A DNA stretch of 45,050 bases from contig JAQCEJ010000036.1 of assembly GCA_027618475.1 (NCBI GenBank), positions 1 through 45,050 on the forward strand, read 5' to 3'. This document shows, in pieces, positions 14,550-21,361 of this stretch. Both the position numbers and the translations under genes were made by a program. The notes below the pieces were generated by a model. The model did not search any database. It saw only the letters and a list, made by a program, of their open reading frames with translations, and had not been told where the DNA came from. This stretch comes from Planctomycetota bacterium. GTDB lineage: Bacteria > Planctomycetota > Planctomycetia > Planctomycetales > Planctomycetaceae. The first letter of the stretch is position 1; every line of letters begins with the position of its first letter.

Positions 14550-14580
14550 AGGTGATTTTGATCCCTCTCACCTGCTTTTT
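14550..14580 (+). terminator. Weak terminator after ndk, overlapping the rnr 3' end
   Basis: AGGTGA (14550-14555) can pair with TCACCT (14568-14573) over a 12-base loop, with a T run at 14576-14580. The right arm includes the rnr stop codon. The stem is only 6 bp, so it is a tentative call. Confidence 0.35.
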
Positions 14581-16907
14581 CGTCCTTTCTTTTGCTTCTT
14601 CTTTACTCCCGATCGATTTGATGTTTCACCCGTTCGTGACTTTGACTTGTGCGGCTTGTTTTTTTCTTTGGAACCGCCGGCCTTTGATCGCGATTCTGAA
14701 GGATGTCGATGTTTCGTTGCCGGACTGGCGGTTGCCGTTATCGACGGTTGATCGTTCTTGATCGGTGCGACAAGATCGACTTTTTTGCCCGACGGTAACT
14801 TGACGATCTGAAAATCGAGTTCCCGGCGGGCGAGATTGACTTCGCTCACCACGACTCGAAGACGATCTCCCAGTTGAATTTTCTGCCCCGAACGCCTTCC
14901 CATATAACTCATGCTCGCTTCTTCGAAGTAGAAATTATCCTCTCGCGGCAAGCGGCTGACGTGAATTAATCCTTCGACGGGAATCTCGACTCCCTGGCAG
15001 AATATACCGAATGGCTCGACCCCGGTGATGACGGCATCCAGCTCTTCCCCGACCCGGTTTGACATCATTACCAGTAGCTTGGTCTTGATCAGCTCGCGCT
15101 CGGCCGTCGCCGCACGGCGTTCGGTGCTCGAACAAGTTTTACCAAGCTTTGTGAGTTCGGAATCAGGCAGTACCGGTACTTTCGTTCCTTTCGCAATCGC
15201 ATCGAATAAACGATGCACAGTCAAATCGGGGTATCGCCGAATCGGACTCGTGAAGTGGCAATATTGATCGACACCGAGGGCGTAATGTCCCGCGTCGATT
15301 TCGGAGTATTCCGCCTGTTTGAAACTGCGGAGTAGAGCATAATTGAGTGCATACTCCTGTGGCTTGCCGTGCACGTTTCGAATGATTGCCTGCATTTCCG
15401 CCCGGCTGAAGATCGGTTTGAGGGGATACCCCAACAGCGTGGCGAATTTGGAAAAATTTTCGAGCTTCAATCGGTCGGGCTCACCGTGAATTCGCCTCAA
15501 GAACGGGATTTGCTTCGACGCCAGTACCTCAGCAACAGCGATGTTCGCCGCAAGCATGAACTCCTCGATGATCTGATGGCTCTCGTCGTGGACAACACGG
15601 TGCGCACCGCTGACGCGCCCTTCCTTGTCGAAATCGAGTTTCGTCTCGGGTAAGTTGAGTTCGAGCGCTCCCCCTCCCATGCGGCGGGCTCTGAGAATCA
15701 TTGCCAGTTCGTGCATTTTGCCGAGCAGTGCACGCACTTTCGCACTGATGCGCGTGCGAAATTTTTCGGGTTCGTTGATGATCGGCATCACTTCTTCATA
15801 CGCGAATCGCCGAGTGACTTTGATCGCCGAATTTACGAATTCGGTATGCAGCGGCAGGCCGGTCGCATCAAATTCGATGAACACACTCTTAGTGAAACGA
15901 ACCTGGTTCTGCTGCAAACTCGCCAGGCCATTTGAAATGACTTCCGGCAACATGGGCAGCACGCGATCGGGGAGATACACACTCGTACCTCGAACACGTG
16001 CTTCGACATCGAGCGCCGATCCCGGTTGCACGAAATGCGAGACGTCTGCAATGTGCACCCCAAGATGCCAATGCCCGTCGTGAGATTTTTCGAGCGAAAT
16101 GGCATCGTCAAAATCGCGTGCATCGACCGGGTCGATCGTCACGATGATCTCTCGCGTCAAATCACGGCGATCTCCCAGTTTTCCAGGATCGAATGCCTCC
16201 GCCTGCCGTCGTGACTCGTGATTCACATTATCGGGAAACTCGTCGGGCAAGCCGAATTCGTGAATGATGGCTTCGGTATCGACGCCGGCCTTTCCTCGAG
16301 GGCCGAGCACTTTGGTGAGCACGGCTTCTCCGGTCTGATATTGCCGGGGATAACGCAGCATTTCGACAACGACCTTGTCGCCTGGCTGCACCCCCTTCGC
16401 GCCGGGATCGCCGACATGGATCAATCCGTTAATGGCCCGTCCGTCGATTTCAACCCACCCCTGCCCTTCTTGTTCGGAATATGTTCCCACGAACTGAGTC
16501 GAAGCCCGCTCAAGCACCTCGGCAATTCGTCCGACGCGCTGTCCCCCTTTTCGTCGGCGATCGAGCAACTGTACCAGCACCTCATCACCCGTTTGCGCAT
16601 CAAACATGTTTTCGACAAAGATATAGATTTCACCCCATCGCGTTTTTTCGTGCGGAATGAGCACGCCGTTACCCGAATCGAGCCGCTTGACGATACCAGC
16701 AATCAAGTGAGAACTCGGCGTCCCCTGAATTTTTCCATCGTCATCAATTGTAATTCGATTATTTTGCAGTAATACATTAAGACAGTCGCGCAGGTCGCCG
16801 ATCTCGTCTCGGGGTATTCCCAATTTTTTCGCCAATGCTTTCGCACTACGCGGACGGTATCCTCCGCGTGAAATATAGCCTAATACCTTCTGTTCGAGGT
16901 CACTCAC
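14568..16907 (-). CDS. rnr: Ribonuclease R (RNB-family 3'-5' exoribonuclease)
   Basis: Processive exonuclease that degrades structured RNA, including rRNA fragments and mRNA, in the cytoplasm. Length is 779 residues. The order is winged-helix/cold-shock OB regions at the N-terminus, the RNB catalytic domain with the metal-binding Asp cluster TIDPVDARDFDDAISL, an S1 domain (GVEPFGIFCQGVEIPVEGLIHVS), and a Lys/Arg/Ser-rich tail of about 60 residues typical of RNase R. The start is GTG at 16907 with GGAG about 10 bases upstream. A perfect TATAAT lies at 16963-16968 on this strand, but no matching -35 box is seen at normal spacing. Confidence 0.95.
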   Translation of the reverse strand: MSDLEQKVLGYISRGGYRPRSAKALAKKLGIPRDEIGDLRDCLNVLLQNNRITIDDDGKIQGTPSSHLIAGIVKRLDSGNGVLIPHEKTRWGEIYIFVENMFDAQTGDEVLVQLLDRRRKGGQRVGRIAEVLERASTQFVGTYSEQEGQGWVEIDGRAINGLIHVGDPGAKGVQPGDKVVVEMLRYPRQYQTGEAVLTKVLGPRGKAGVDTEAIIHEFGLPDEFPDNVNHESRRQAEAFDPGKLGDRRDLTREIIVTIDPVDARDFDDAISLEKSHDGHWHLGVHIADVSHFVQPGSALDVEARVRGTSVYLPDRVLPMLPEVISNGLASLQQNQVRFTKSVFIEFDATGLPLHTEFVNSAIKVTRRFAYEEVMPIINEPEKFRTRISAKVRALLGKMHELAMILRARRMGGGALELNLPETKLDFDKEGRVSGAHRVVHDESHQIIEEFMLAANIAVAEVLASKQIPFLRRIHGEPDRLKLENFSKFATLLGYPLKPIFSRAEMQAIIRNVHGKPQEYALNYALLRSFKQAEYSEIDAGHYALGVDQYCHFTSPIRRYPDLTVHRLFDAIAKGTKVPVLPDSELTKLGKTCSSTERRAATAERELIKTKLLVMMSNRVGEELDAVITGVEPFGIFCQGVEIPVEGLIHVSRLPREDNFYFEEASMSYMGRRSGQKIQLGDRLRVVVSEVNLARRELDFQIVKLPSGKKVDLVAPIKNDQPSITATASPATKHRHPSESRSKAGGSKEKNKPHKSKSRTGETSNRSGVKKKQKKGRKSR

Positions 16908-19204: not shown

Positions 19205-21361
19205 TTATCCGGTTTGGGCGACATTCATCAATTCGCCGAAGCGTTCTGTGACAATCGCCTTGAGCTCCGCGTATTCGGGATCGTCCCATTGACCCGATTC
19301 TAGAATTTCAGCCGCTTGATCCTTGGCCAGTTGGAGTTCCGTCTGATTCACGGCAAGGTTGGCGATGCGGAATGGCAATTGGCCATGCTGTCTTGTACCA
19401 AGTACGTCGCCGGGACCGCGAAGTTCGAAGTCGGTCTCGGCGATTTGAAATCCGTTCGAGGTCGCTTCGAGTGCCGAAAGCCGGCGAATCGCGTCCTCGT
19501 CACTGCTTTCAGAGAACAGAAAACAGTAGCCGTGATATCTGCCGCGAGCGACACGTCCTCTGAGCTGATGGAGTTGCGAGAGTCCGAAACGCTCGGCGTC
19601 GAGAATGACCATCAACGTGGCGTTTGGCACGTCGACCCCAACTTCAATGACCGTTGTCGAGACGAGAACCTGAATCTTCCCTTCTCGGAAACCCTGCATA
19701 ACGCGGTCGGTCTCATCGCGCTTCATCTGACCATGTACGAGTCCCAGGCGAAAGTTTTTGAGTTCGCCAGCTTTCAATTGTAAAAATACCTGTTCGGCCG
19801 CCGTCGCCGTCAAGACGTGTCCCCCTTCAAACTCCTGGACTCCTCCTCTCCCCGTCTCCCCATCCCCCATTCCCCCACTCTCATCCTCCAACTCCCACAC
19901 GTCCCCTTCAGACACCCGTGGACAAACAACATAAGCCTGCCGGCCGTTCGCAACCTGCTCGCGGATGAATTGCCATGCTCGTTGCCTGATGTTCGGCTGG
20001 TACACCCGGCTTGTCACAACAGATTGACGCCCCGGGGGAAGATCGCCAATGACGGTCAGATCGAGATCACCGAACAGCGTCATGCACAAACTGCGAGGAA
20101 TCGGCGTTGCCGTCATCACCAGAACGTGCGGGTTACCCGACCCGATCGAAATTTGTGCCCGTTGTTTCACGCCGAATTTGTGCTGTTCGTCGATCACGAC
20201 CAGCCCCAGTTTTGCAAAGCGAACATCTCTTTGAATCACCGACTGAGTACCGATAATAAGGTCAACAGTACCTGCTGAAATCTCCGCAAGTACGTCGCGA
20301 CGCTGTGCCGGAGTAAGACTTCCGGTGAATAGTCGCCGACGAACTCGGCTCTTCACCAGAAGTTGATCGATGGTCTCCCAGTGCTGCATGGCGAGCAATT
20401 CGGTCGGGGCCATGAGTGCGGTCTGGCATCCATGCGCTACAGCGGTAAGCATTGCGTACACGGCCACTGCCGTCTTCCCTGCGCCGACATCGGCCTGAAG
20501 CAGACGATGCATGACGTGATGAGAATTGAGATCGGCAGCGATTTCCTTAACGGCGTGGTTTTGTCCCGCCGTGAATGGAAACGGAAACAAACGTCGAATG
20601 CGGGCATCGATTTTCGCCGTGACTTCAAGCGGGTAAGCGTCCGGACGCTTCTTCCAGCTGCGTCGACGGATTCCTAATGCAAGTTGAAATTCAAGCAGAT
20701 CATCATACGCAAGACGCGACCGGCAACGATTGAACTCAACGACGGTTCGCGGTCGATGAACCCCCCGCAATGCGGCGGGAAGCGATACCCAATCGTGATC
20801 AGCCTGAAAGGACTTCGGCAGTGGGTCAAATACAGTATCGGCATACTCTTCGACGGCAAGAGACATGATGCGACGCATTTCGTGCATCTTCAGTCCTTCG
20901 GTGAGAGCGTATATCGGCAACACCCCCACAGCGGCTTCGGCGTCGTCGTCATCGAGATACTGCACACGAGGATGATTCATTTCCCAGCGGCCAGCGCGAT
21001 ATTTCGGTTTGCCGGAGAACAGCACCGTCTGACCCATGTGAAACGATCGCAGCACCCATGTCTGATTAAACCACGTTCCACGAAGGAATTCACCGTCGCA
21101 ATCGAGCAACACCGACGTGATCGTTCGCTGGCGTGAAATTTCCTTCCCATCGAGATCGACCACCCGTCCGCGGACGGTATGTACTTCTTTTTCTTCAAGC
21201 TCCCGTACCGGCGTAACGACGGTGAGATCGAGCAAACCGCGCGGTATGGTAAAGAGAAGATCTTGCACCGTTTCGATACCAAGTTTCTCCAGAAGTTCGG
21301 CTCGCTGAGGGCCGACTTCTTTTAGAAACTGCACGGGCATGTTCAAGGGATCGTCGTTCAC
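19205..21361 (-). CDS. recG: ATP-dependent DNA helicase RecG, with a low-complexity insertion
   Basis: Branch-migrating helicase that reverses stalled forks and processes Holliday junctions. Length is 718 residues. The N-terminal wedge domain starts with PVQFLKEVGPQRAELLEKLGI. The helicase motifs follow: ADVGAGKTAVA (Walker A), VVIDEQHKFG (DExH), VMTATPIPRSL, TTVIEVGVDVPNAT and QLHQLRGRVARG. Between the conserved VCPRVSEGD and ATAAEQVFLQL lies a Gly/Glu-rich insertion of about 25-30 residues that E. coli RecG lacks; its DNA is a polypurine, G-run-rich tract. A GTG start at 21361 gives a normal N-terminus; ATG 21340 (MPVQFL) is the alternative. Confidence 0.95.
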   Translation of the reverse strand: MNDDPLNMPVQFLKEVGPQRAELLEKLGIETVQDLLFTIPRGLLDLTVVTPVRELEEKEVHTVRGRVVDLDGKEISRQRTITSVLLDCDGEFLRGTWFNQTWVLRSFHMGQTVLFSGKPKYRAGRWEMNHPRVQYLDDDDAEAAVGVLPIYALTEGLKMHEMRRIMSLAVEEYADTVFDPLPKSFQADHDWVSLPAALRGVHRPRTVVEFNRCRSRLAYDDLLEFQLALGIRRRSWKKRPDAYPLEVTAKIDARIRRLFPFPFTAGQNHAVKEIAADLNSHHVMHRLLQADVGAGKTAVAVYAMLTAVAHGCQTALMAPTELLAMQHWETIDQLLVKSRVRRRLFTGSLTPAQRRDVLAEISAGTVDLIIGTQSVIQRDVRFAKLGLVVIDEQHKFGVKQRAQISIGSGNPHVLVMTATPIPRSLCMTLFGDLDLTVIGDLPPGRQSVVTSRVYQPNIRQRAWQFIREQVANGRQAYVVCPRVSEGDVWELEDESGGMGDGETGRGGVQEFEGGHVLTATAAEQVFLQLKAGELKNFRLGLVHGQMKRDETDRVMQGFREGKIQVLVSTTVIEVGVDVPNATLMVILDAERFGLSQLHQLRGRVARGRYHGYCFLFSESSDEDAIRRLSALEATSNGFQIAETDFELRGPGDVLGTRQHGQLPFRIANLAVNQTELQLAKDQAAEILESGQWDDPEYAELKAIVTERFGELMNVAQTG
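19850..19876 (-). other. Potential G-quadruplex inside recG
   Basis: On the coding (minus) strand four G-runs of 5, 5, 4 and 4 bases are separated by loops AAT, AT and AGAC, a canonical intramolecular G-quadruplex pattern. The plus strand shows the C-runs at 19850-19853, 19858-19861, 19864-19868 and 19872-19876. It would be present in the recG mRNA as well as in the non-template DNA strand. Confidence 0.7.

Follow-up and report, generated by a model that had tools for sequence, protein, structure and literature searches.

The locus lies in a stretch of 45,050 nucleotides from an uncultured planctomycete (hereafter, the window), in which a single open frame on the minus strand encodes a protein of the RecG helicase family. 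This assignment follows from both domain architecture, with the RecG wedge, DEAD, helicase C and RecG domain 3 all found by Pfam, and curated family scores, since two of the three best NCBIfam models, the RecG equivalogs NF008168 and NF008165, pass their cut-offs and the other (TIGR00643) falls just under its own (641.9 vs 659.4). Among solved structures, 1gm5 is the top match by sequence (phmmer) and also by the fold of the AlphaFold model, which has a mean pLDDT of 85.5. Confidence in that model drops in a loop flanked by the motif IV strand (residues 475-479) and the following helix (518-531), and it is here, directly after helicase motif IV, that the gene carries about 84 extra bases (Table 1). 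A misassembly at this point is judged unlikely, because one frame runs through the tract and joins the two halves of recG. Elsewhere in the window, the stretch 14562-14610 is also purine-rich, though less G-rich, and encodes the Lys/Arg-rich tail of a protein that we take to be RNase R-like.

Table 1. Position in the window and supporting evidence of the recG gene and of the elements within its loop.
Feature	Position	Strand	Evidence
recG, ATP-dependent DNA helicase, 718 aa	19205..21361	-	NCBIfam, Pfam, phmmer, AlphaFold model
Loop predicted to be disordered, residues 484-518	19808..19912	-	pLDDT below 50
In-frame insert, 84 nt, residues W489-V516	19814..19897	-	Loop lengths of 103 distinct RecGs; exact edges presumptive
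Polypurine tract (coding strand)	19820..19909	-	Third-highest score among the 18 strong tracts of the 845,050-base sample
Octamer-period core, ~5.4 copies	19840..19880		Tandem Repeats Finder, lag-8 self-match
G-quadruplex-capable motif G5-AAT-G5-AT-G4-AGAC-G4	19850..19876	-	Motif scan, G4Hunter, ViennaRNA
5' copy of imperfect flanking direct repeat, TCTGAAGGGGACGTG	19898..19912	-	Sequence
3' copy of imperfect flanking direct repeat, TTTGAAGGGGGACACGTC	19814..19831	-	Sequence

On the coding strand the G-rich core of the tract reads GGGGGAATGGGGGATGGGGAGACGGGG, in agreement with the earlier note, which had seen four G-runs of 5, 5, 4 and 4 bases with 2-4 base loops; the loops measure 3, 2 and 4 bases. 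The tract thus has the sequence signature of a G-quadruplex (G4), four G-runs with short loops, and it is the sole motif of four runs of at least three (G3+x4) or at least four (G4+x4) guanines in the whole window. Of 200 first-order Markov shuffles of the window, 79 contained one or more G3+x4 motifs and none contained a G4+x4 motif; hence, the unusual component is the length of the runs and not the presence of four G-triplets. G4Hunter values at the tract, up to 2.56, are the highest in the window, although by this looser measure ten further 100-base bins also reach an absolute value of at least 1.5. With quadruplexes allowed, ViennaRNA predicts a four-layer RNA G4 at -37.1 kcal/mol, against a weak G4-free fold of -6.1 kcal/mol for 90 nt, the latter without a shuffle control. 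Scored as a polypyrimidine segment, the tract attains 42 (60 shuffles: mean 21, maximum 40). Its core shows a period of 8 bases according to Tandem Repeats Finder, at a low score of 33, and a lag-8 self-match of 0.69 (p 0.0014 against mononucleotide shuffles).

The comparison with other RecG proteins draws on 59 genomes, none of the same genus, every one of which gave a match; the weak-E matches in distant genomes, with frames of about 1,100 aa, are probably the helicase Mfd rather than RecG. To the window protein and 29 aligned relatives, a named collection added 73 sequences (the best 80 of 585 loci, with best-segment identity of at most 60%, after removal of four without a usable frame and three duplicates), giving 103 distinct RecGs for the analysis of loop lengths, measured from P481 to H543. 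The named relatives accord with a planctomycete origin of the window. The modal length among the named RecGs, drawn from the best 80 of 585 loci, is 33 residues (49 of 73), as opposed to 61 in the window, and in the other set (n=30) lengths range from 31 to 119, with 34 the commonest (7 of 30). Removal of W489-V516 would bring the window loop to the modal 33 residues. Ten further loci extended the alignment to 113 rows, including one duplicate row, and here insertions of at least 12 residues occur after residue 489 in 21 rows, the window among them, after residue 408 in seven and after residue 144 in three. All the other 112 rows lack the window's own insert, a result that rules out a conserved protein insert among the RecGs compared. 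The expectation that the insert would prove lineage-specific is thereby borne out, and the case named beforehand as its refutation, a phylum-wide insert encoded by non-G-rich codons, is contradicted by the same alignment. Its size of about 28 residues also falls within the 25-30 proposed earlier, and its stated absence from E. coli RecG agrees with the solved chains: against 1gm5 the alignment breaks after query residue 489 and restarts at 522, skipping four chain residues, and against 9wm0, whose length of 693 aa points to E. coli RecG, it breaks after 490 and restarts at 513, skipping none.

The edges of the insert carry an imperfect direct repeat, both copies of which contain the 8-mer TGAAGGGG; at an uncorrected p of about 0.02 this is a marginal result. 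Seven bases at either edge (19814-19820 and 19897-19903), GACGTGT and ACACGTC, can also be read as an inverted match. Codon adaptation is 0.647 for the insert and 0.712 for the whole of recG, and values as low as or lower than that of the insert occur in 115 of 691 codon windows of recG and in 966 of 8,890 from other genes. On both comparisons codon usage fails to set the insert apart as foreign and is uninformative as a marker of capture.

The host genome contains tracts of the same kind. The octamer pattern CTCCCACTCCCCCACTC, allowing up to two mismatches, gives 29 matches at 20 places, against three for the reversed pattern used as control; the pattern was picked after viewing tracts of this genome, and nine of the 29 matches come from one tandem array on contig C84. 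At three mismatches the excess shrinks to 76 against 37. A single other genome, G021, shows a comparable signal (21 against nine reversed), with at most seven matches in each of the other 57; the reversed control itself is high in G012 (24) and G051 (nine). In 845,050 sampled host bases there are 18 strong tracts, and none in either of two shuffles, and the recG tract shares with the repeat both the 8-bp period and the G-rich purine strand. G4+x4 motifs number six in this sample (five shuffles: 0, 0, 0, 2 and 0) and G3+x4 motifs 30 (shuffles: 9 to 16); enlarging the sample to 1,206,475 bases leaves the G4+x4 count at six, of which only that of recG is inside a called gene. The earlier note had advised a search of the genome for the same tract, and the outcome is mixed, since tracts of the same kind were found and the best DNA match of the 80-base tract extends over 41 bases at 83% (E 3.3e-5), a weak similarity. 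With E up to 10, that query gave 12 non-self matches, one of them below 0.001. The whole recG gene, searched at E up to 1, gave 11 non-self matches among those listed, two of them on the tract, at E 9e-4 (the best of the 11) and E 0.25. The strongest tract sampled is the C84 array itself, a long tandem series of an 8-bp unit (C84:40342-40467; L198, ~342-467) placed at or ahead of a called gene's start. Another contig starts within a tract of octamer type (L039, C105:1-41), and therefore octamer repeats may break the assembly.

Most of these tracts lie outside genes. The host sample consists of contigs holding matches of the earlier searches, and gene starts are rough, the calls resting on a simple codon score. 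Its 1,206,475 bases hold 39 G-rich tracts, of which 29 fall between genes or straddle a gene boundary and six are at gene ends. The remaining four are inside called genes: recG, the gene of a Gly-Met repeat protein (C58), a predicted gene of 302 aa (C150) and a 990-aa frame (C134), in which the tract sits on the template strand. Stop codons appear to be favored. At nine of the 19 octamer places other than recG the tract is at or just across a stop codon (distance -38 to +13), with the G-rich strand coding, and the opposite orientation within 15 bases past a stop is seen at none of the 19. Within 50 bases after the stop of 527 called genes there are seven G-tracts and no C-tracts with a score of at least 20, compared with two G-tracts and four C-tracts upstream; at least one of the seven, on C134, belongs to a hairpin and is possibly a different repeat. 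With the threshold lowered to 16, the counts are nine G and five C downstream and four G and five C upstream. The recG tract is oriented like those at stop codons, with its G-rich strand as the coding strand. Octamer tracts, often AGAAGAGTGGG..., begin directly after stops, with the G-rich strand coding, at places such as C24:33475-33527 (L231), C151:29741-29788 (L221), C111:63578-63619 (L215) and C109:47024-47081 (L203). At L215, two convergent called genes (3467 and 3621; C111:63467 and 63621) each have a post-stop tract of their own.

Six recG genes or loops, picked for long or odd loops and not at random, were also searched against their own genomes. Repeats within RecG loops emerge in three of the five other genera and, weakly, in the window, among the matches listed. 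The loop of G012 has at least 58 matches besides itself, belonging to three kinds of repeat; at 119 residues (L022, 1219-1512), against the modal 33, its DNA holds all three dispersed kinds. For G013, all 36 non-self matches listed are in or at the edges of two inserts, and for G021, 23 of the 24 listed are within inserts after residues 408 and 489. The G013 inserts follow residues 144 and 408 (L178), and a site at about 942,500 of its contig C1 matches both, on opposite strands. The G021 insert after residue 408 (L177) opens with GGGGAATGGGGACCGGGGAGTGGGG, which is octamer-like and G4-capable. Of the 113 recG rows, two have a G4+x4 motif on the coding strand, those of the window and of G021, in each case within an octamer-like insert and in different loops; four rows have a coding-strand G3+x4 motif. 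Among the matches listed, G026 shows no dispersed loop repeat and only an inverted self-match, and the extra matches of G016 fall outside the loop, the two strongest being on a contig with a probable Mfd gene; long loops can therefore arise otherwise. The insert in the G026 loop (L014, 2083-2244) holds an inverted repeat with no second genomic copy at E 0.01 among the matches listed. In 587,413 bases of G021, a sample partly chosen as in the host, there are 102 G-rich tracts, 21 of them classed inside called genes, and 27 G4+x4 motifs, five inside called genes, though false gene calls may be among them (e.g. a 1985-aa frame with six tracts). With tracts and motifs in many called genes, RecG is not special in that genome, and the in-gene tracts of G021 and of the host weaken the notion of RecG as a unique sink for repeats.

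Taken together, these results make it very probable that a dispersed octamer-period polypurine repeat, mostly intergenic in the host, was copied in frame into a recG loop tolerant of length. The octamer excess in the host genome, the shared period and the placement of the tracts all support the suggestion, made on first inspection, that a genomic repeat had been captured by the gene. A single in-frame insertion would account for the insert, possibly aided by a short target duplication or by microhomology through the TGAAGGGG near-repeat at its ends. At 84 nt, and with an open frame, such an insert could survive in recG, the RecG bearing it would still work, and the tolerance of the loop to length change would allow it to be kept. 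The main competing account, which we consider rather unlikely, is that a purine-rich, Gly/Glu-coding stretch of the flexible loop grew in place by slippage, with no transfer. Octamer periodicity is the product expected of slippage, the length of the loop is variable among relatives, and the similarity of the tract to other copies, just 83% over 41 bases, is what such growth might leave; nonetheless, growth in place sits poorly with the genome-wide and mainly intergenic excess of the same octamer flavor, and slippage of an 8-bp unit would often have disrupted the frame.

Selection for the insert itself finds less room. It seems barely credible that it is a functional protein module, such as a Gly-rich contact with DNA or a partner protein, selected at the protein level: the model places it on the second RecA-like domain beside motif IV, but it is predicted to be disordered and is present in no other RecG compared. 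A selected quadruplex, in the coding strand or the mRNA, that slows the polymerase or the ribosome and tunes the level of RecG, or that flags the locus as a fork-stress sensor, is likewise very unlikely. The strong predicted G4 potential of the tract is in its favor, as is the fact that both coding-strand G4+x4 motifs of the 113 rows are in octamer-like inserts, and one study (PMC10530614) reports that in an E. coli recG mutant a cloned G4 repeat mutated at a 3.4-fold lower rate in one orientation, a second G4 repeat changing less than 2-fold. That result concerns the protein acting on G4s, and not a G4 within recG itself. The 27 G4+x4 motifs of G021, five in called genes, and its 21 in-gene G-rich tracts stand against such a role, and candidate captures in other genes of that genome make a property special to a fork helicase less likely. 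We give similarly little credence to the broader proposal that G-rich octamer repeats land recurrently in the RecG loops of this planctomycete family, where the coding-strand quadruplex would tie recG expression or stability to the very replication stress relieved by RecG. A role for the G4, if it had one, would connect a fork helicase with the structure of the gene that encodes it. Under the capture of a dispersed repeat, which we favor, a G4 could form in the mRNA and the non-template strand but would probably be incidental. Because the loop is variable in length and predicted to be disordered, the insert is probably tolerated, and on the structural model it most likely adds a flexible Gly/Glu-rich stretch to the second RecA-like domain, with little effect.

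The closest known parallel is that of the Rickettsia palindromic elements (RPEs), dispersed repeats described in passages of PMC10969869 and PMC3767692 as residing in frame within intact genes. The recG insert likewise is in frame in a housekeeping gene and has similar copies elsewhere in the host genome. RPEs, however, are palindromes of about 100-150 bp, whereas the insert is 84 nt built round an octamer-period polypurine tract, with a weak G4-free fold and no shown palindrome, and it belongs to another phylum. The outcome is thus similar to that of RPEs and the element is of a different type. MITEs with in-frame fusions, as presented in parts of PMC10969869, are also short repeats that land in reading frames, but the recG insert has no shown family terminal inverted repeats and its flanking direct repeat is imperfect and marginal (p about 0.02). 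As for placement, the host tracts are mostly intergenic or at gene ends, which recalls the enrichment of bacterial G4 motifs in intergenic DNA close to gene borders reported in PMC12563890; the emphasis there, in the portions that bear on this point, is on gene starts, whereas the host tracts favor stop codons, and the recG copy, unlike those border-placed tracts, is in the interior of a gene. Oligopurine and mirror patterns are described in sections of PMC4060949 as moderately over-represented in some cyanobacteria and in the planctomycete Isosphaera, and a literature search yielded no title on repeats within planctomycete RecG.

The recG insert is therefore real, lineage-specific and one case in a recurrent pattern. 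Repeats in RecG loops look like tolerated genomic clutter, and not like a proven regulatory switch. Our analysis suggests that, beyond the example of Rickettsia, a housekeeping enzyme can gain protein sequence from simple intergenic repeats, and that the RecG loops of different genera absorb unrelated repeats. These genomes provide a natural series for studying the spread of such repeats, the ways in which proteins accommodate them and whether G-rich tracts have any effect at stop codons.
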